A stretch of 33,670 nucleotides of DNA. It comes from a virus. A program made the translations under genes and the position numbers. Positions 6,394 through 17,091 of this stretch are shown here, piece by piece (positions within the stretch are counted from its first letter, which is position 1; the number at the start of each line of letters is the position of its first letter). The notes under the pieces were generated by a model. That model did no database searches. It worked only from the letters and a program-made list of their open reading frames with translations, and was not told the DNA's origin. Where the stretch lies: positions 1 through 33,670 of IMG/VR virus record IMGVR_UViG_3300032296_003280; one strand, 5' to 3'.

Positions 6394-7203
6394 ATGAATA
6401 CAATTGAAATGAAAAATGTTAATGTAGTAAAAAGAGGTCGTCCTTCTAAACAGTCTGAAGTTAAAGCTTTTGATCCTAGTAGTATTCAGTTGCTTAGAGG
6501 TTCTGATTTGAAGTTTAATGACTCTTTGTTCCAACCTATGAAAACTAATTCTGAAGTTGATGTAATTATGTCAACTGAAGGTGGTGTAATGCCCGGTACT
6601 AATATGGTACTTGTTGGTGGTCCTGGTTCAGGTAAATCAACAGTTGTTTTAGATATGCTTTCTAACTTTACTCGTCAAGGTTACAAATGTTTGTTTGTAA
6701 GTGGTGAAATGGATGAAGTTGGTTATTACAAGTATTGTAAGCGTTTACCTAAATTTGCTTGTGTTCAAACCTTGTTTTTGAAAAACTATGCTGAAACAGT
6801 TAAAGAAACTCTTGAATATGTTTTTGCTCAAGGTTATGATATTATTGCTGTTGATTCAATTGCCGAAGTTATTGAAATGGTAAAAGATAATTACCGTACA
6901 ACTGAAAGTGCTGCTGAAAGTTGGTTTTTGAATTTGCAAGATCAGCATAAAAAAGGTAATAATAAAAATAATTACTATACTACCTTTATTAATATTCAAC
7001 AAGTTACTAAACAAGGTGAATTTGCTGGTTCAAACCGTTTGAAACATATGACTGATGCAATGTGTCATATTGAGCGTTCAAAAGATGGTTTGCAACGTAA
7101 AATGTATTTTAGTAAAAACCGTGATTGTGATAAAGATTTTGATGTTTACTTCACAATTCATAAAGATTCAGTTTATTATTCATATGAGACAATTTCTGAA
7201 TAA
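6394..7203 (+). CDS. RadA/RecA-like ATPase
   Basis: 269 residues. Walker A GGPGSGKST at 75-83 and Walker B IIAVDS around D154, with the central RecA-fold order. The section INIQQVTKQGEFAGSNRLKH and the following MCHIER resemble the KaiC/RadA motif where branch-migration ATPases read GEIAGP...LEH. An AT-hook-like KRGRPSK lies at 13-19. No N-terminal zinc finger and no C-terminal Lon-like domain, so it is a core-only version. Likely role in phage recombination or as a DnaB-family ATPase. Start fixed by the AATAAAGGTT leader. Confidence 0.75.
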   Translation: MNTIEMKNVNVVKRGRPSKQSEVKAFDPSSIQLLRGSDLKFNDSLFQPMKTNSEVDVIMSTEGGVMPGTNMVLVGGPGSGKSTVVLDMLSNFTRQGYKCLFVSGEMDEVGYYKYCKRLPKFACVQTLFLKNYAETVKETLEYVFAQGYDIIAVDSIAEVIEMVKDNYRTTESAAESWFLNLQDQHKKGNNKNNYYTTFINIQQVTKQGEFAGSNRLKHMTDAMCHIERSKDGLQRKMYFSKNRDCDKDFDVYFTIHKDSVYYSYETISE

Positions 7204-7207
7204 TAAA

Positions 7208-7239
7208 TTTGGAAAATCAAAATAAATTTCGTACATTTA
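7208..7239 (+). promoter_or_regulatory. Class A promoter
   Basis: TTTGG at 7208-7212, 19 bases, TACATTTA at 7232-7239. The ATG of the next gene is only 5 bases beyond the -7 box, so the message is leaderless or nearly so, or the start is further in. Confidence 0.75.
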
Positions 7240-11754: not shown

Positions 11755-12636
11755 ATAAAAAACGTTCTTAAATTTATTAGATATCCATTTCAACGCAAGT
11801 TGAATAAAAGATATTGGCAGCCTATGGTCGTTAAATAAACTGGGAAACCAGGATAAAGTGAATTGCTAGACTAAGCAGTTTGCGGCTTTGAAAAGAGCTC
11901 GAGTAGGCAAGCGAGATATCATTTGGTCCTAGTATCCGAGGGTAACACTTTAGGAGAATTGATTGAATGACTTGGCAATGTGGTTTGTCAGGTTGAGTTC
12001 GGAAGAGCAATAAGAATAACTCGTAGAAACAATGCAAAAAATACTTCCATCCAGTTGTATTATTGCGTTTTTCAATATCAGAGGATGCTTAAAGTCGGAA
12101 GACATGTTAATGTACAGGTGGTGCTGTTATTAACCTTGACCTTAGTCTACCAAGACATGAGTCATGAAGTAATCTCAAAGTATGGAGGTAGGGATATCTC
12201 AGAGAGTAGTTTAGTATTTTCTCGCTCAAAAGGTGGGGAAGCTAGGTTGGTAGGCCACTACTTTCACAATCCACAAGTCAAAACTTTAATAATTTGCCTT
12301 ATTGGTCGCAAAACCTATTAAATCAAAAATTAAAGCAAAAGTGCTTACCAGTTGCCGACGAAAGGTGCCTACACAGTATTGGGTTGTCCAATGCCATCAA
12401 TGATCGCAAGTCAAAGATGATTCGTTCGAAAAATTTGTAGCCTCGGCAGAGGTTTATCAGACCGCAAGTTTGAACAGATAGAGTAAAACGAGAGTAGTCG
12501 AATAAAAGCAACTTAAAGAGTGGTTTACTTAAATAACCGGCATTGTTAGGATACGAATCAAAAGTTCGTGGATAAGAAGGGAACACATAATCCAACAAAA
12601 GACCTAACACCAAAACGTATAGTCTCAGCGTTTTAT
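11755..12636 (+). ncRNA. Candidate giant structured RNA (~880 nt)
   Basis: No credible ORF, higher G+C than its surroundings, a dedicated promoter at the 5' end and a hairpin AAAACG/CGTTTT at 12612-12634 followed by ATTT at the 3' end. Many local stems with GNRA caps are visible: TTCAAC-GCAA-GTTGAA near 11790, CTGG-GAAA-CCAG near 11840, TGCT/AGCA near 11865, CTCG/CGAG near 11900. At the 3' end TGTTAGG (12543) pairs with CCTAACA (12603) around two inner stems. Known giant RNAs of phages that sit beside tRNA genes are GOLLD and ROOL. Size and context fit that class, but I cannot confirm family membership. Confidence 0.6.
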
Positions 12637-12858: not shown

Positions 12859-12876
12859 CAAAAAAATTAAATATAG

Positions 12877-12908
12877 TTTGGTATCTTAAGATTCCTTTCG
12901 TATATTTA
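12877..12908 (+). promoter_or_regulatory. Class A promoter of the attenuated tRNA operon
   Basis: TTTGG at 12877-12881, 19 bases, TATATTTA at 12901-12908. Transcription would begin a few bases later, leaving a short A-rich leader before the 31-codon ORF. Confidence 0.8.
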
Positions 12909-12930
12909 TAACAAATAAAAAATTTCAAAA

Positions 12931-13026
12931 ATGAAACATTGTATATCATATCAACTAAGTCCCCAGAAGTCGTTTTGGATGAATCCAGTGGCTGAGGACA
13001 TTAGATTGATTGGGCTTACGATGTAA
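12931..13026 (+). CDS. 31-codon leader peptide containing all 20 amino acids
   Basis: ATG at 12931 behind the A-rich leader AATTTCAAAA; TAA at 13024. All 20 amino acids occur, including single His3, Cys4, Tyr7, Phe15, Trp16, Asn18, Val20, Ala21, Glu22, Asp23, Arg25, Gly28 and Thr30. Amino acids used more than once take different codons: Leu CTA, TTG, CTT; Ser TCA, AGT, TCG; Ile ATA, ATT; Lys AAA, AAG; Gln CAA, CAG; Pro CCC, CCA. It therefore reads nearly every tRNA in the array; Arg uses AGA only. Codons 28-30 are one arm of the anti-terminator. Interpreted as the sensor of an attenuator, not a functional protein. Translation itself is unproven. Confidence 0.75.
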   Translation: MKHCISYQLSPQKSFWMNPVAEDIRLIGLTM

Positions 13027-13084
13027 CGTTTTTAAAACATATTAAAAACACTAGTAAGCCCGGTTCAAAAGATCGGGCTCTTTT
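12959..13084 (+). promoter_or_regulatory. Attenuator: competing anti-terminator and terminator
   Basis: Three stems are visible. (1) GTCCCCAG 12959-12966 with CTGAGGAC 12992-12999, one C-A mismatch. (2) GGGCTTAC 13012-13019 with GTAAGCCC 13054-13061, enclosing an 8-bp hairpin GTTTTTAA/TTAAAAAC (13028-13049). (3) AGCCCG 13057-13062 with CGGGCT 13074-13079 followed by CTTTT. Stems 2 and 3 share 13057-13061 and cannot coexist. The ribosome finishing the leader ORF at 13026 would cover 13012-13019 and favour stem 3. This is classical attenuation geometry. Confidence 0.75.
13057..13084 (+). terminator. Conditional intrinsic terminator
   Basis: AGCCCG-11 nt-CGGGCT then CTTTT, just before the boxA and tRNA-Phe. 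It blocks the tRNA operon when the upstream anti-terminator cannot form. Confidence 0.7.
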
Positions 13085-13096
13085 AGTTCTTTGACA
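13085..13096 (+). promoter_or_regulatory. boxA-like antitermination site 1
   Basis: AGTTCTTTGACA, close to the NusB/S10 boxA consensus TGCTCTTTAACA and like the sequence ahead of Bacteroidota 16S rRNA genes. The motif plus ATATGAGAA is repeated at 14570. Lies between the terminator and tRNA-Phe. Confidence 0.7.
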
Positions 13097-13109
13097 TATG
13101 AGAAAAAAT

Positions 13110-13182
13110 GCGGCAGTAGCAAAGATGGTCAATGCACTGGACTGAAAATCCAGCCATGCAGGTTCGAGTCCTGCCTTCCGCA
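13110..13182 (+). tRNA. tRNA-Phe(GAA)
   Basis: Acceptor GCGGCAG/CTTCCGC (one mismatch), anticodon arm TGGA-CTGAAAA-TCCA, T-arm GCAGG-TTCGAGT-CCTGC, A73. First tRNA after the attenuator. Confidence 0.92.
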
Positions 13183-13188
13183 CAATAT

Positions 13189-13264
13189 AGCGTAGTAGAG
13201 GAGTCAGGTTTATCTCATCTGCTTTGGGAGCAGAGGTACGCCGGTTCGAATCCGGCCTACGCTA
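13189..13264 (+). tRNA. tRNA-Pro(TGG)
   Basis: Perfect acceptor AGCGTAG/CTACGCT, anticodon arm TCTGC-TTTGGGA-GCAGA, T-arm GCCGG-TTCGAAT-CCGGC, A73. Confidence 0.93.
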
Positions 13265-13270
13265 CAAAAT

Positions 13271-13344
13271 GACCTTATAGCTCAATTGGTTAGAGCACTA
13301 CACTTTTAATGTAGGGGTTGAAAGTTCGAGTCTTTCTGGGGTCA
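13271..13344 (+). tRNA. tRNA-Lys(TTT)
   Basis: Acceptor GACCTTA/TGGGGTC, D-arm GCTC/GAGC, anticodon arm CTACA-CTTTTAA-TGTAG, T-arm GAAAG-TTCGAGT-CTTTC, A73. Confidence 0.93.
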
Positions 13345-13350
13345 CAATTT

Positions 13351-13426
13351 CTTTCCTTTGCTTAGTTGGTTTTAAAGCGTCTCTTTTACACGGAGAAGAT
13401 CGTTGGTTCGAATCCAGCAGGAAAGA
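13351..13426 (+). tRNA. tRNA-Val(TAC)
   Basis: Acceptor CTTTCCT/AGGAAAG, D-arm GCTT/AAGC, anticodon loop TTTACAC in stem TCTCT/GGAGA, T-arm GTTGG-TTCGAAT-CCAGC, A73. Confidence 0.9.
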
Positions 13427-13432
13427 CAAAAT

Positions 13433-13514
13433 GCCTGTATCGCATAGCGGCAATTGCAGCTGACTGTAAATCAGCTCTCTTTTGAGTTCGGAGGTTCGAG
13501 TCCTTCTGCAGGCA
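13433..13514 (+). tRNA. tRNA-Tyr(GTA)
   Basis: Class II: acceptor GCCTGTA/TGCAGGC, anticodon arm GCTGA-CTGTAAA-TCAGC, variable arm CTCTTTTGAG, T-arm GGAGG-TTCGAGT-CCTTC, A73. Confidence 0.92.
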
Positions 13515-13520
13515 CTAAAT

Positions 13521-13594
13521 AGAAATATAGCTCAATTGGTTAGAGCACTTGTCTGATACACAAGAGGTTACAAGTTCGATTCTTGTTATTTCTA
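13521..13594 (+). tRNA. tRNA-Ile(GAT)
   Basis: Acceptor AGAAATA/TATTTCT, anticodon arm CTTGT-CTGATAC-ACAAG, T-arm ACAAG-TTCGATT-CTTGT, A73. Confidence 0.93.
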
Positions 13595-13600
13595 CTAAAC

Positions 13601-13673
13601 GGTGTATGTAGCTCAAAGGAAGAGCGTTTGCTTGTGGCGCAAAAGGTTGGGATTTCGAAATTCCTCATATACC
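13601..13673 (+). tRNA. tRNA-His(GTG)
   Basis: Acceptor GTGTATG/CATATAC with an encoded G(-1) at 13601 opposite C73, the His identity pair. Anticodon arm TTTGC-TTGTGGC-GCAAA. The D-loop is short. Confidence 0.9.
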
Positions 13674-13680
13674 CTAAAAA

Positions 13681-13764
13681 GGAAAGTGACCCTTGACGGT
13701 GATAGGGCTTGCCTGCTAAGCAATGTGTACCTTCGGGTATTTGGTTCGACTCCAACTCTTTCCG
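13681..13764 (+). tRNA. tRNA-Ser(GCT)
   Basis: Class II: acceptor GGAAAG/CTTTCC, anticodon arm TTGC-CTGCTAA-GCAA, variable arm GTACC-TTCG-GGTAT, T-loop TTCGACT, G73. Confidence 0.9.
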
Positions 13765-13776
13765 CTATGTAAAAAC

Positions 13777-13785
13777 TATTTATAA
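13777..13785 (+). promoter_or_regulatory. Class B (late-type) box TATTTATAA
   Basis: TATTTATAA eight bases before the ATG at 13793, with no TTTGG at the -33 position. Same box precedes genes at 21617, 24108 and 33282. Confidence 0.45.
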
Positions 13786-13792
13786 TAAAACT

Positions 13793-14245
13793 ATGGAATT
13801 CAGAACATTAACAAACCGGAAAAAAATCAATTTGGTTGACTACGTTAGAGCGTATTTAAACGACAATCCTCATGTTGAGGTGTTGGTTGGGTGTGACTCG
13901 CAAGGTTATTGGGATAAAACGATATATGCAACTGTAGTAGCACTTTATAAACCGGGTAATGGTGCACATGTTTTATATTATAGAGAAACACTACCTGTTG
14001 AAAGAGTTCGTCAAGTACGTTTAATGACTGAGGTTTGGAAATCAATTGAAGTAGCTGAAGTACTTAAAAATGCAGGTTTACCTCAAGTTAAATATATTGA
14101 CATAGACATTAATCCTGACAAAAGATATAAATCAAACGAGGTTTTAAGAGCAGCGGTTGGTTTAGTTGAAGGGATGGGTTATCAAGTTAGATATAAAACA
14201 CTAGGTGCAATGGCAACATTTGCAGCTGATACGTTAGTAAAATAA
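13793..14245 (+). CDS. YkuK/DUF458-type RNase H-fold protein
   Basis: 150 residues from ATG 13793; an upstream in-frame extension would run into tRNA-Ser and is rejected. V-G-C-D35-S-Q starts the RNase H-like first strand, with E80 on the following helix and D103-I-D105 in the next strand (YIDIDINPD), giving the acidic residues of a two-metal nuclease. The pattern matches the YkuK (DUF458) family, predicted RNase H-like nucleases. It is the only protein gene between the tRNA-Phe and tRNA-Arg(TCT) genes, so a role in tRNA or RNA maturation or turnover is plausible but inferred. Confidence 0.7.
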   Translation: MEFRTLTNRKKINLVDYVRAYLNDNPHVEVLVGCDSQGYWDKTIYATVVALYKPGNGAHVLYYRETLPVERVRQVRLMTEVWKSIEVAEVLKNAGLPQVKYIDIDINPDKRYKSNEVLRAAVGLVEGMGYQVRYKTLGAMATFAADTLVK

Positions 14246-14251
14246 CTAACT

Positions 14252-14325
14252 GGTTCCTTAGCTTAATGGATTAGAGCACTTCGCTACGGACGAAGGGGTT
14301 GGGAGTTCGAGTCTCTCAGGAACTA
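14252..14325 (+). tRNA. tRNA-Arg(ACG)
   Basis: Acceptor GGTTCCT/AGGAACT with G1-U72, anticodon arm CTTCG-CTACGGA-CGAAG, T-arm GGGAG-TTCGAGT-CTCTC, A73. ACG would need host TadA to make inosine at position 34. The only array tRNA whose codons are absent from the leader ORF. Confidence 0.92.
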
Positions 14326-14332
14326 CTAATAA

Positions 14333-14403
14333 GGTCAGTTGTCCGATTGGTAAGGTGGGTGTCTGCAAAATTCCCTATATAGGTTCGAATCCTATACTGA
14401 CCT
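14333..14403 (+). tRNA. tRNA-Cys(GCA)
   Basis: Perfect acceptor GGTCAGT/ACTGACC, anticodon loop CTGCAAA in a weak stem (one mismatch), T-arm ATAGG-TTCGAAT-CCTAT, U73 as expected for Cys. Confidence 0.88.
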
Positions 14404-14409
14404 CAATAC

Positions 14410-14480
14410 GTGTCTGTGGTGTAATGGTAACATAGTGGTCTCCAAAACCTCTGTTGGGAGTTCGAGTCTCTCCAGGCATG
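14410..14480 (+). tRNA. tRNA-Trp(CCA)
   Basis: Acceptor GTGTCTG/CAGGCAT with G1-U72, anticodon loop CTCCAAA, T-arm GGGAG-TTCGAGT-CTCTC, G73 (Trp identity). Confidence 0.9.
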
Positions 14481-14511
14481 CAAAAAGAAAGTTAAAGATT
14501 TTTATAAAAGA

Positions 14512-14543
14512 TTTGGCTTTTTAAAGAATGTTTCGTACATTCA
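14512..14543 (+). promoter_or_regulatory. Class A promoter, second tRNA sub-operon
   Basis: TTTGG at 14512-14516, 19 bases, TACATTCA at 14536-14543. A boxA follows 26 bases later; no leader ORF or terminator is seen here. Confidence 0.85.
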
Positions 14544-14569
14544 TTGGGTTGTTGAGATAATAACAAAAT

Positions 14570-14581
14570 TGCTCTTTGACA
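14570..14581 (+). promoter_or_regulatory. boxA-like antitermination site 2
   Basis: TGCTCTTTGACA matches the boxA consensus TGCTCTTTAACA at 11 of 12 positions and is followed by TATGAGAA as at site 1. Lies between a promoter and tRNA-Leu(TAG). Confidence 0.75.
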
Positions 14582-14594
14582 TATGAGAACAAAT

Positions 14595-14676
14595 ACCGAG
14601 GTGGTGAAATTGGTAGACACGCCGGTCTTAGAAACCGGTGCTTAATCGCTTGCGAGTTCGAGTCTCGCCTTCGGTA
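14595..14676 (+). tRNA. tRNA-Leu(TAG)
   Basis: Class II: acceptor ACCGAGG/CTTCGGT, anticodon arm CCGGT-CTTAGAA-ACCGG, T-arm GCGAG-TTCGAGT-CTCGC, A73. Confidence 0.93.
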
Positions 14677-14681
14677 CAAAT

Positions 14682-14781
14682 AGTCAGGTGGCGGAAATGG
14701 TAGACGCACCCAAAAGGATAGTGATGAAGGTAGGAGTACCCCATGTAAAACTATATACAGGTTCAAGTCCTGTCCTGACTA
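14682..14781 (+). ncRNA. tRNA-like RNA 3 (100 nt)
   Basis: Acceptor AGTCAGG/CCTGACT, Leu-type D region TGGCGGAAATGGTAGACGCA, T-arm ACAGG-TTCAAGT-CCTGT (T-loop differs from the other copies). The interior has GGTA-GGAG-TACC and ATAGT/ACTAT stems but no 5-bp/7-nt anticodon arm. Confidence 0.7.
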
Positions 14782-14869
14782 CAAGGAGTGTCAACCTCAA
14801 GTGCTGGGTAGTTAAAAACTATCAGATGAGCCCATCAAAGTTGGTGACAGCTTGGAAAGACAAGTACAC
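14782..14869 (+). other. Structured tRNA spacer
   Basis: Contains GTCAAC pairing with the GTTGGTGAC region and a CAAG/CTTG outer pair, with GGTAGTT-AAA-AACTATC inside. No ORF and no tRNA features. Confidence 0.3.
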
Positions 14870-14941
14870 GTCTTGGTAGCTCAGTGGTAGAGCAAGCGGC
14901 TGTTAACCGCTAGGTCGTAGGTTCGAAACCTTCCCAGGACG
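14870..14941 (+). tRNA. tRNA-Asn(GTT)
   Basis: Acceptor GTCTTGG/CCAGGAC, D-arm GCTC/GAGC, anticodon arm AGCGG-CTGTTAA-CCGCT, G73 (Asn identity). Confidence 0.93.
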
Positions 14942-14947
14942 CTAAAT

Positions 14948-15019
14948 GGCCCTTTCGTCTATCGGTTAGGACATCAGATTTTCAATCTGTAAAGACGGGT
15001 TCGATTCCCGTAGGGGCTA
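14948..15019 (+). tRNA. tRNA-Glu(TTC)
   Basis: Acceptor GGCCCTT/AGGGGCT with G1-U72, anticodon arm TCAGA-TTTTCAA-TCTGT, T-arm ACGGG-TTCGATT-CCCGT, A73. Confidence 0.92.
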
Positions 15020-15025
15020 CAAATT

Positions 15026-15162
15026 TCAGGAGTAATTAACCTGAAACTGACAGGTTCGAAACTGTCGATTGGCTATGGTGTAATGGAGCACAGCAGAACG
15101 GAGTACGAGATTCAATCTCAGAAAGGGGACGCAGGATTAAGGTTCGAATCCTTATTAGTCAG
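15026..15162 (+). ncRNA. tRNA-like RNA 4, Gln-type, with upstream extra T-arm
   Basis: The core 15070-15162 has acceptor TGGCTAT/TTAGTCA (one mismatch), a GGTGTAATGG D region like tRNA-Trp/Gln, and T-arm TAAGG-TTCGAAT-CCTTA with G73. Where the anticodon arm should be there is only GAGAT-TCA-ATCTC and loose sequence. Just upstream, 15026-15066 has hairpin TCAGG/CCTGA with loop AGTAATTAA, matching a hairpin inside tRNA-like RNA 1, and a stray T-arm-like GACAG-GTTCGAA-ACTGTC. Not a normal tRNA; could be a rearranged relic or a functional decoy. Confidence 0.5.
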
Positions 15163-15172
15163 CAAATTAAAT

Positions 15173-15246
15173 TGCGGGGAAGTTGAGCTGGTGCACACAG
15201 GGGTCTCATAAGCCTCTCTAGGTGGATTCGATTTCCACTCCCGCAA
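15173..15246 (+). tRNA. tRNA-Met(CAT), possibly initiator
   Basis: Acceptor TGCGGGG/TCCCGCA, anticodon loop CTCATAA in stem GGGGT/GCCTC, T-arm GTGGA-TTCGATT-TCCAC, A73. The G-rich anticodon stem and weak T1-A72 pair hint at an initiator, but the D-arm is irregular, so elongator is not excluded. Confidence 0.82.
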
Positions 15247-15250
15247 CAAA

Positions 15251-15324
15251 GTGTTGTTCCCTTGAGAAAGGAATGTTAAGACAAAGAGTGATTAATTGTC
15301 TTTAATAACGAACCACTACAACAC
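15251..15324 (+). ncRNA. Structured spacer, tRNA-sized, 7-bp closing stem
   Basis: GTGTTGT (15251-15257) pairs with ACAACAC (15318-15324). Inside are TTCC/GGAA and a long TTAAGACAA/TTGTCTTTAA stem. 74 nt with a 7-bp end stem like a tRNA, but no T-loop. Confidence 0.45.
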
Positions 15325-15346
15325 AAAGGACTTCTCATCCTTAAAC

Positions 15347-15417
15347 TACCCTCTCGTCTAACGGCAGGACAAGTGGTTTTGGTCCACTTAATCGAGGTTC
15401 GAATCCTTGGGGGGTAA
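15347..15417 (+). tRNA. tRNA-Gln(TTG)
   Basis: Acceptor TACCCTC/GGGGGTA, D-arm GTC/GAC, anticodon arm AGTGG-TTTTGGT-CCACT, T-loop TTCGAAT, A73. Confidence 0.9.
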
Positions 15418-15418
15418 C

Positions 15419-15524
15419 TAGGTAGAAGTAAGTAACACCTGTTGCAGGCAACATAAAGTAAGAACCACAACTTGACTGGTCGTTACTTCTTATAATAGAT
15501 AATGTGGATATTGTAAGCTACCTA
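15419..15524 (+). ncRNA. Structured spacer, 7-bp closing stem
   Basis: TAGGTAG (15419-15425) pairs with CTACCTA (15518-15524). Inside are an AGAAGTAA/GTTACTTCT stem and hairpin TGTTG-CAGG-CAACA. No tRNA arms, no ORF. Confidence 0.4.
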
Positions 15525-15527
15525 TTT

Positions 15528-15600
15528 GGGGTTGTAGCTCAACTGGCTGAGCGCTTCCTTTGCAAGGAAGAGGTCATGGGTTCAAATCCCTTCAACTCCA
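15528..15600 (+). tRNA. tRNA-Ala(TGC)
   Basis: Acceptor GGGGTTG/CAACTCC with the G3-U70 Ala identity pair, anticodon arm CTTCC-TTTGCAA-GGAAG, T-arm with TTCAAAT, A73. Confidence 0.93.
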
Positions 15601-15826
15601 CAATGAGTAAGAGATACTCAGCAGTCTTTAATCCAAGACTCATTTAACAATGGATTCGTTCAATCCGGACAGCGAGAATGCCGGATCTTGGGAATAAAGG
15701 ATAAAGACACAAATCCTCCCAGTAGTGTTGATTTATATTTTTATGTGGTAAGACACTAATGTGTTTGTTTTTAAGAAAACTAAACCGTTAAAATCTACTC
15801 ACTTTGAATCTCAGAGTGGGAAAAAC
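15601..15826 (+). other. 226-nt structured gene-free spacer
   Basis: A series of hairpins: GAGT/ACTC, AGTCTT-TAATCC-AAGACT, GGATT-CGTTC-AATCC, TCCGG/CCGGA, TGGGA/TCCCA, ACAC-TAAT-GTGT and CTCACTTT/AGAGTGGG, leading into tRNA-like RNA 5. No ORF. Density of stems suggests a structured RNA rather than filler. Confidence 0.4.
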
Positions 15827-15952
15827 AGTCAGGTGGCGAAATTGGATAGACGCTAAGTGAGTTCAAATGTGTTACTGTTTAATTCAGTGTACAGTTCGCA
15901 GGTAGGATAGTCTGCCACAATGAACATACAGGTTCGAATCCTGTCCTGACTA
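15827..15952 (+). ncRNA. tRNA-like RNA 5 (126 nt)
   Basis: Acceptor AGTCAGG/CCTGACT, D region TGGCGAAATTGGATAGACGCT, T-arm ACAGG-TTCGAAT-CCTGT, A73. Inside, GTTCA/TGAAC encloses a TACTG-TTTAATT-CAGTG arm and a GCAG/CTGC hairpin. The 7-nt loop would present TAA (Leu) with U33, so this copy keeps a trace of an anticodon arm displaced by insertions on both sides. Confidence 0.7.
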
Positions 15953-16170
15953 CACGGTCCGAAACACGACAACGGATAGTGTGCCCAACACGATGAGAAA
16001 CGGAGTGATGACCGTATGGGACTGATGATAGGACAAGGTTCTATTCGGTTTGACTAACCGCGGGGAATATCAAAGAGATGTAAAGAACAACGTACTCTCA
16101 AAGTCTATTTCTAACCCGGTAACGGGGACAGCCACAACACCTGTAAGTTGAATAAATTAGGGTGTTATTT
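15953..16170 (+). other. 218-nt structured gene-free spacer
   Basis: ACGGTC (15954-15959) pairs with GACCGT (16010-16015), enclosing GTGT-GCCCA-ACAC. Then CGGTT-TGACT-AACCG, a GNRA hairpin CCCG-GTAA-CGGG, and AACACC/GGTGTT just before tRNA-like RNA 6. No ORF. Confidence 0.4.
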
Positions 16171-16260
16171 AGTCAGGTGGCAATTGGTGTCACAGCTGCT
16201 TCGGGGGCTGTACAACGTTCCCTGTAATGGGGAATACAGGTTCGAATCCTGTCCTGACTA
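16171..16260 (+). ncRNA. tRNA-like RNA 6 (90 nt, most tRNA-shaped)
   Basis: Acceptor AGTCAGG/CCTGACT and T-arm ACAGG-TTCGAAT-CCTGT, A73. The arm at the anticodon position is ACAGC...GCTGT with a loop TGCTTCGGGG too long for decoding. A second arm TTCCC-TGTAATG-GGGAA takes the variable-arm place. Class II-like fold without a usable anticodon. Confidence 0.7.
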
Positions 16261-16265
16261 CAAAA

Positions 16266-16337
16266 GGTCTATTAGTGTAGTGGTTACCACGTCTCACTGT
16301 CTATGAGATAACCTCGGTTCGAATCCGGGATAGACCG
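16266..16337 (+). tRNA. tRNA-Asp(GTC)
   Basis: Acceptor GGTCTAT/ATAGACC, anticodon arm TCTCA-CTGTCTA-TGAGA, T-loop TTCGAAT, G73 (Asp identity). Confidence 0.92.
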
Positions 16338-16345
16338 CAAAATAC

Positions 16346-16430
16346 GGAAAGTTGGCAGAGTGGTTTAATGCGGCAGTCTTGAAAACTGTTGACTGTAACA
16401 GGTCCGGGAGTTCGAATCTCTCACTTTCCG
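16346..16430 (+). tRNA. tRNA-Ser(TGA)
   Basis: Class II: acceptor GGAAAGT/ACTTTCC, anticodon arm CAGT-CTTGAAA-ACTG, T-arm GGGAG-TTCGAAT-CTCTC, G73. Confidence 0.92.
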
Positions 16431-16540
16431 CACCTTAAAACCGATTCGGGTTCGTGAACAAGGGAGGCCTGCGACTTGAAATACAGACAAATCACGTTAA
16501 ATCTCCTCACACTAGGTGGCATCGGTGACCTAGTACTTAT
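16431..16540 (+). other. Structured tRNA spacer
   Basis: Hairpin ACTAGGT (16511-16517)/ACCTAGT (16528-16534), plus CGTG/CACG and an ACCGAT/ATCGGT pairing that competes with it. No ORF. Confidence 0.35.
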
Positions 16541-16614
16541 GTTCTCATAGCTCAGCTGGATAGAGCAACTGCCTTCTAAGCAGTAGGTCAATGGTTCGAA
16601 TCCATTTGGGAATA
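16541..16614 (+). tRNA. tRNA-Arg(TCT)
   Basis: Acceptor GTTCTCA/TGGGAAT with G1-U72, D-arm GCTC/GAGC, anticodon arm CTGC-CTTCTAA-GCAG, T-arm AATGG-TTCGAAT-CCATT, A73. Confidence 0.92.
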
Positions 16615-16622
16615 CAAATAGG

Positions 16623-16634
16623 AGTTCTTTGACA
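16623..16634 (+). promoter_or_regulatory. boxA-like antitermination site 3
   Basis: AGTTCTTTGACA followed by TATTAAAA, identical in its core to site 1. It lies inside the tRNA operon just before a protein gene and the last tRNA. Confidence 0.65.
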
Positions 16635-16657
16635 TATTAAAAAAGAAAGGAATAAAA

Positions 16658-16954
16658 ATGGAAATAACATCATTTATTTTAGGTATGCTCTCAGTGGTAG
16701 CTGTGATTGTAATTGCAGTTATTGTTAAGGGTATGGTTAAGATTGTAAAACTAGAAAAAGAGTTGAAAAATACTCAAGAAAGCATTGAATGGAGAGATAG
16801 AAATAATTCAGATGCTAATCGTGAAATATACGATAGATTATCAATGATGGATGAACATGCTTATCGTCAATTAGAAGAAATAAAAAGAGATCTTATCTCT
16901 TATGTAGATTCTCGTATAGACAAGCTTCAGTCTAAAAAGGAGGCAACCAAATAA
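16658..16954 (+). CDS. Membrane-anchored coiled-coil protein (98 aa)
   Basis: One N-terminal membrane segment (about residues 4-27, Val/Ile-rich) followed by a charged coiled coil to the end (LEKELKNTQESIEWRDRNN onward). AGAAAGGAATAAAA before the ATG is the closest thing to a Shine-Dalgarno site in this half of the window. Sits between boxA 3 and the last tRNA. The topology resembles an i-spanin or a small membrane scaffold, but the lysis genes are downstream and separate. Function unknown. Confidence 0.7.
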   Translation: MEITSFILGMLSVVAVIVIAVIVKGMVKIVKLEKELKNTQESIEWRDRNNSDANREIYDRLSMMDEHAYRQLEEIKRDLISYVDSRIDKLQSKKEATK

Positions 16955-16989
16955 TTTAAGTTAAACCCGTCAAAGAATTCCTATTTACT

Positions 16990-17063
16990 GGATCCTTAGC
17001 TCAATTGGTTAGAGCAACTGACTCATAATCAGTAGGTCATAGGTTCGATTCCTATAGGATCCA
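16990..17063 (+). tRNA. tRNA with CAT anticodon (Ile2 or elongator Met)
   Basis: Perfect acceptor GGATCCT/AGGATCC, D-arm GCTC/GAGC, anticodon arm CTGA-CTCATAA-TCAG, T-arm ATAGG-TTCGATT-CCTAT, A73. With a second CAT tRNA at 15173, this may be the tRNA-Ile whose C34 is changed to lysidine by host TilS to read ATA; the leader ORF contains ATA. Confidence 0.88.
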
Positions 17064-17091
17064 CGCCACTGAAGACGAAGCGTTTATTCGC

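Follow-up and report, generated by a model that had tools for sequence, protein, structure and literature searches.

Organization of the locus

The window, i.e. the whole stretch of DNA analysed here, is a 33,670-base virus record from an environmental collection, and its gene content, with baseplate and endolysin genes, is that of a tailed phage. A short open reading frame (ORF) lies in it with a Gly tRNA gene on one side and a Phe tRNA gene on the other. The features of this locus are as follows.

12878-12906, + strand: weak promoter candidate, 9 of 12 matches to the sigma-70 pattern
12931-13026, + strand: leader ORF, 31 codons from ATG to TAA with all 20 amino acids; homologous leaders occur in related phages
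13012-13019, + strand: arm 2, the 5' strand of the antiterminator, GGGCTTAC, leader codons 28-30
13054-13061, + strand: arm 3, common to antiterminator and terminator, GTAAGCCC
13057-13079, + strand: intrinsic terminator hairpin of arms 3 and 4, then a T run
13087-13098, + strand: boxA-like sequence, exact TTCTTTGACATA
13110-17064, + strand: tRNA operon behind the terminator, 21 tRNAs called for 18 amino acids, no Thr and no Gly
13793-14242, + strand: RNase-H-like gene (PF04308) inside the array, used as bait for relatives

The leader ORF uses all 20 amino acids with varied codons (28 different ones among the 31, most residues occurring once) and has no CGN codons for Arg, as a preliminary description of this DNA had reported. 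That description had also proposed a chance estimate, which comes to 1e-4 to 2e-4 by composition: the probability of finding all 20 in 31 codons is 1.0e-4 under the protein composition of the window and 2.1e-4 in random DNA of its base composition. A second, longer ORF with 20 kinds (49 codons, TTG start) occurs by chance at 2254-2403 on the - strand, and hence the amino-acid breadth alone is not decisive.

Two other elements of the description are not borne out. Its promoter corresponds to a single sigma-70-type match at 12878-12906, in a region where shuffled sequences yield 8.3 such matches, i.e. the real sequence has fewer than the shuffled ones. The operon was said to cover all 20 amino acids; 18 are called downstream of the terminator, and the Thr and Gly tRNAs lie upstream of the leader together with one Leu tRNA. 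ARAGORN overlooks some tRNAs, and hence all operon sets given here are lower bounds. By eye, we noticed uncalled tRNA-like stretches at 13682-13765, 14683-14781 and 15036-15163, the first of which resembles a Ser-GCT tRNA. The boxA of the description corresponds to a boxA-like TTCTTTGACATA at 13087, which is repeated in the array exactly at 16625 and with one mismatch at 14572; this sequence may have the role that boxA has in rRNA leaders.

Other structured RNAs accompany the arrays. A GOLLD RNA (RF02032, 278 bits) lies at 12202-12631 of the window, just upstream of the Thr tRNA, and GOLLD was also found in L012, L117, L045 and L023, i.e. in five of the six sources searched including the window. 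PMC12286853 places GOLLD often close to tRNA islands and gives its function as unknown. We also observed tmRNA genes near the tRNA arrays of relatives (L023 2733-3107, L117 13597-13998, L012 4452-4807 and L108 14402-14803), a freshwater-1 RNA (RF02979) among the second-block tRNA genes of L108 at 7147-7208, and tRNA calls with anticodon CTA (Pyl according to ARAGORN) in L110, L111, L129, L130 and L148, which are possibly amber suppressors.

Alternative RNA structures

The layout of the window leader is the classical anatomy of an attenuator. The short ORF ends at the antiterminator arm, and the two mutually exclusive hairpins that had been described are both found, sharing arm 3, with one of them being an intrinsic terminator. 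The antiterminator GGGCTTAC/GTAAGCCC can be extended to 12 pairs, 5 of them G-C. We compared the folds with those of shuffled sequences and found that the leader at 12908-13090 has a z score of -5.39, with 0 of 200 shuffles as good. When the whole leader is folded, part of arm 2 is paired inside a hairpin of the ORF itself and the terminator is formed; when the fold starts at the end of codon 25, the antiterminator is formed instead (z -3.57, 1 of 200 shuffles as good). The window leader is without the repeated codons for a single amino acid that are typical of ribosome-mediated attenuators, though not strictly required in them.

Survey of related leaders

We gathered relatives through the RNase-H-like gene (PF04308) on virus contigs, and more of them by DNA pattern using two leader patterns. 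The scan required a terminator in front of a tRNA and, upstream of this terminator, an ATG ORF able to pair through its later part with the terminator's 5' arm. At least 226 loci were surveyed, which are redundant with several per contig, and our counts are therefore made on distinct leaders. The survey yielded at least 87 rows. They comprise 83 distinct leader peptides, which we sorted by motif into ten families, taking F3 and F4 together as F3/4. The family motifs were written after the survey matches were in view, and F1, the family of the window leader, may be related to F2. In seven leaders the start was moved to an inner ATG by five motif rules, likewise after the matches were in view.

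All 83 distinct leaders, which come from uncultured phages, have a terminator and an overlapping antiterminator before tRNA genes, and 31 of the 83 contain the complete set of 20 amino acids, e.g. MKHCQSYQFSLTASWMNRPEVKDIRLKGLMM before a Phe tRNA (L004), MKTLTLHTNCSQPTLRNEWAGIRMFSTISNPANLGKVDYICTQLEEASGW before an Asn tRNA (L064) and MKLTIHTKHWQLNQEKGYCFTSINDVQAPSTVPGLYRTS before a Lys tRNA (L192). Broad short ORFs before the tRNA clusters of related phages, a check that had been suggested, are thus found in number, and the ORF and the stems are conserved together in these phages, in line with the proposed attenuator with an exceptionally broad leader. Cys, His and Trp occur in more leaders than protein composition predicts: of 64 distinct leaders, 55 contain Cys (17.5 expected), 52 His (31.0) and 48 Trp (26.1).

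We counted the candidates that have 19 or more kinds, no more than 55 codons and a solid antiterminator. There are 40 of them at the 103 distinct terminators that have an upstream ORF and precede tRNAs, and 1 at the 236 such terminators located elsewhere. The lone candidate elsewhere (L186) has a peptide identical to that of the L181 leader, which precedes a tRNA. These numbers bear on the view that a broad ORF simply happens to lie next to an ordinary terminator. ORFs with 20 kinds do occur by chance in these loci, but a single one has a probability of about 1e-4, the comparative data already contradict chance through the recurrence of terminator and antiterminator before tRNAs, and the match to the operon described below is a further argument against it; we give this explanation almost no probability.

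Neither the block of tRNAs from Phe to Asn nor the leader is present in L006, L007 and L036. L006 and L036 are close relatives (85% in the RNase-H-like protein), and other genes occupy the site of the missing block. Of the 17 matches on genome contigs, 15 have no called tRNA. Phage-like contigs bearing the array were binned into a Flavobacterium genome (L173, with array and leader) and a Candidatus Peregrinibacteria genome (L159, whose 5.8 kb contain a partial array without a leader); assignments by binning can be wrong.

The searches among cultured phages returned no counterpart: a DNA similarity search with the leader gave matches only at E about 0.8, tblastn with one leader peptide gave no match, and the RNase-H-like protein had no match at 60% identity or above in the cultured-phage records. 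No such leader was seen in the portions covered of Flavobacterium phage immuto (30 of 160 kb), Bacteroides phage DAC15 (25 of 99 kb), DSS3_MAL1 (36 of 150 kb, 31 tRNAs) and two metagenomic phages (40 of 484 kb and 40 of 735 kb).

Leader content and operon content

The regulatory codons are cognate to what the operon supplies. Across 80 distinct leader-operon pairs, 1129 of 1147 operon residues are found in the own leader, compared with 222 of 373 residues for which the operon has no tRNA, and 66 of the 80 pairs miss no operon residue. The 18 absent residues are E (6), C (4), R (4), A (2), Q (1) and D (1). Thr is absent from 6 of 9 F1 leaders and Gly from one. Five F5 leaders (L122, L123, L130, L020 and L096) were left out of the 1129/1147 count since the leader of their second block had been missed by the filter. 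A matching ORF upstream of the second block was later found for four of the five, with none at L130; these four ORFs, on the same contigs, are L115 with a terminator, and L122, L123 and L100 without one at the settings used.

We permuted the operons within families, and the observed match was reached in 0 of 5000 permutations overall, 5 of 5000 in F5 and 0 of 5000 in F6. F1, F2 and F3/4 show no association of their own because their arrays hardly vary. We also calculated the probability that protein windows of equal length cover the operon as well as the leader does. The family medians are 0.0006 for F1, 0.01 for F5, 0.02-0.03 for F2 and F3/4, 0.07 for F9 and 0.12-0.15 for F6, F7 and F8, i.e. 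in the last three families the operon coverage of a single leader is not rare. The strength of the match thus rests on its recurrence and on the complementarity of leaders described below. If the leaders are read in the other two frames, 2.7 and 3.2 operon residues on average are missing, compared with 0.27 in the real frame.

Our analysis thus suggests a sharper rule than the one first put forward, namely that the content of a leader is the content of the tRNAs of its own operon. The preliminary description had the leader sampling the whole pool of charged tRNAs. We rejected this reading, as narrower leaders match narrower operons in relatives with split arrays; what the leader appears to sample is the tRNAs encoded behind it. 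Its interpretation as an attenuator with a broad leader, now seen to be conserved, is retained, and the pool-wide sampling is given up.

Split arrays

In several phages the array is divided into two blocks, each with its own leader, and the two leaders complement each other. L108 is an example. Its leader MRRFTHTMSFTICSKWAEVADICMSRGVL, without N, P, Q and Y, precedes the block Lys, Val, Trp, Arg, Cys, His, Ile, Met, Thr, Asp, Ser, Glu, and its leader MMKMVYIQQPLNNPLSGNGRGIYLCDPCSEFLKV, without A, H, T and W, precedes the block Leu, Arg, Pro, Asn, Leu, Tyr, Ile, Met, Gly, Gln, Ser. We considered the residues exclusive to one block, Met left out, in 12 two-block loci, and found all 187 of 187 in the own leader but 91 of 187 in the other leader. 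An earlier count gave 177/177 with the start Met counted and 188/192 without it, all four misses being Met. Eleven of the 12 loci share one pair of leader families and are not independent; L197 has an unrelated pair following the same rule, with its second leader chosen from three ORFs before one terminator as the only one containing arm 2, and with 3 of its 14 counted residues at codons that are non-permissive in the fold model given below.

The leaders differ accordingly where tRNA genes moved between blocks. The Asp and Glu tRNAs are in the F6 block of L016 and L062, where D and E are both in the F6 leader and neither is in the F5 leader. In L101 it is the F5 block that carries these tRNAs; D and E both occur in its F5 leader, and its F6 leader has D but no E.

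In these split arrays the match extends to isoacceptors. Where the F5 blocks have Arg-ACG, the leaders contain CGN in 12 of 12 cases and AGR in 5 of 12; where the F6 blocks have Arg-TCT, AGR is found in 11 of 11 leaders, and CGN in 3 of 14. With Ser-GCT in the F6 blocks, AGY occurs in 12 of 12 leaders, compared with 2 of 12 F5 leaders. The isoacceptor match is less clear in the single-array families, where the Arg codons fit poorly, with CGN in 11 of 22 leaders of F3/4 and 2 of 5 of F2, and all ten F1 leaders (10/10) have AGY although no Ser-GCT tRNA is called. We also noticed that the Ile codons are ATA in F6 leaders (e.g. L124 and L101) and ATY in F5 leaders, whose blocks hold Ile-GAT, and hence the Met-CAT tRNAs of the F6 blocks may be Ile-CAU.

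The two-block loci also speak to a general sensor of translation rate, in which any slowing of ribosomes would open the operon and the breadth of the leader would merely ensure that some slow codon is present. Such a sensor would have the same architecture, and a leader with many codons would respond to general slowing too. The distribution of the block-exclusive residues between own and other leader speaks against it, as does the joint change of leader and operon content in F5 and F6, and we regard it as unlikely, though the least so of the alternatives considered.

Residue order, covariation and selection

The operon residues tend to be placed early in the leaders. Those present are first met more than three codons before arm 2 in 98.3% of cases, compared with 88.0% in shuffled order, the highest of 300 shuffles being 90.9%. 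We also used a fold model that assumes a footprint for the ribosome. In this model 1120 of the 1129 operon residues are at codons where a stalled ribosome permits the antiterminator. The antiterminator persists in 4 of 80 leaders once the ribosome is at the stop codon, and an untranslated leader forms the terminator in 73 of 80.

In the window, codon 24 of 31 is the latest at which a stall is still permissive in the model. Stalls at the seven codons that follow (R, L, I, G, L, T, M) should then not open the switch, leaving the 17 kinds of codons 1-24 as the effective set. The residues met only after codon 24 are R, G and T. The operon encodes no tRNA for G or T. It does encode Arg tRNAs, and the only Arg codon of the leader (AGA, codon 25) comes one codon too late in the model. 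The caveat of the preliminary description, that stalls at the last codons would cover the antiterminator arm, is answered in part by this finding.

The arms have covaried in the largest family. Among the 21 sequences of F3/4, cells changed on both sides number 12 in the antiterminator and 9 in the terminator, each reached in 0 of 500 shuffles; the number of further pair types in the antiterminator is not raised. Covariation in F1 is weak, with 3 cells changed on both sides among 8 distinct sequences, a value that 30 of 500 shuffles reach. Real arm pairs outscore pairs swapped between families, the mean fraction of swaps that are as good being 0 to 0.08 by family. Computation shows the parts themselves, that they are conserved and covary, and that the leader matches the operon.

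The dN/dS of the leader codons before arm 2 is 0.11 to 0.62 in the six families with usable pairs, and 0.32 in F1 (20 pairs), values that bear indirectly on translation of the leader. A conserved reading frame with dN/dS below 1 would also be expected of a short functional protein, e.g. an anti-defence peptide, located by accident between promoter and tRNAs. Ten dissimilar families at the same place, a coding sequence doubling as the antiterminator arm and the match to the operon all count against such a peptide, which we consider very unlikely.

Proposed mechanism

We consider it highly probable from these comparisons that a ribosome-mediated transcription attenuator guards the phage tRNA operon, with regulatory codons cognate to the operon's own tRNAs. 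Translation of the leader, stalling, read-through and feedback are steps that we infer. Nearly all amino acids with a tRNA in the operon are represented by a codon in the leader gene. If a charged tRNA became scarce, the leading ribosome would stall in the first part of the leader, leaving arm 2 free to pair with arm 3, so that the terminator would be blocked and the operon transcribed. If all tRNAs of the set were sufficient, the ribosome would reach the stop codon and cover arm 2, and arms 3 and 4 would terminate transcription; an untranslated leader RNA would take the terminator form as well. The attenuator would then act as an OR gate over the tRNA set, opened by the shortage of any one tRNA and closed by sufficiency. 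The leader codons are read by tRNAs that the operon itself encodes, so that the circuit should be self-limiting.

The trigger would most likely be that individual tRNAs are severely depleted in the course of infection. With about one codon per tRNA, a leader should ignore a mild shortage and answer a near-complete loss, which would favour tRNA cleavage or host shut-off as the trigger. In a wider reading, to which we give only a little more than even chances, large phages keep a near-complete private tRNA reserve behind a self-matched sensor of the OR type; any single loss, by an anticodon nuclease or host shut-off, would switch the set on, its products would switch it off, and the leader codons would be kept in register with the operon as tRNA genes move between blocks.

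Relation to known systems and biological meaning

The arrangement resembles the attenuators of amino acid operons (trp, his, thr, ilvGMEDA and pheA) in its leader ORF and overlapping antiterminator and terminator, in the covering of arm 2 by a ribosome at the stop codon and in the terminator form of the untranslated RNA. It differs from them in having one or a few codons each for up to 20 amino acids, a codon set that appears to be dictated by the tRNAs of a viral tRNA operon. In the leaders of known attenuators (PMC1183508), codons for one amino acid or a few are repeated, and the genes under control are biosynthetic. The window leader scores below the gathering thresholds of two Rfam leader families, with 19.6 bits for Trp_leader (threshold 41) and 17.7 for Thr_leader (55).

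T-box riboswitches also respond to the state of tRNA and control transcription termination. The likeness to the leaders described here ends there, as a T-box binds one uncharged tRNA directly and needs no leader peptide. For 12860-13110 of the window, the matches with E up to 1 did not include a T-box family.

The replacement of tRNAs struck by tRNA-cleaving defences of the host has been proposed or shown as a role of phage tRNAs (PMC10264068 and PMC11555353). Compared with such defence-evading tRNA sets, the loci described here additionally have a control element that appears tuned to the set. A word search of the available portion of PMC10264068 returned none of the words attenuator, terminator, leader, operon and promoter, and among the matches listed in the open PMC literature, none dealt with attenuation of a phage tRNA cluster or with a leader containing all amino acids.

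Why phages carry large tRNA sets is a long-standing question, for which the attenuator offers a specific and testable control logic, i.e. the set would be produced on demand with every member monitored. Attenuation would no longer concern just one or a few amino acids but an entire decoding set, and the leader would be a natural reporter for tRNA loss. The comparative rule that leader content equals operon content should help to recognise similar leaders elsewhere. If the reading as a self-matched sensor is true, we would have here a regulatory sequence that evolves as an inventory of the genes under its control.
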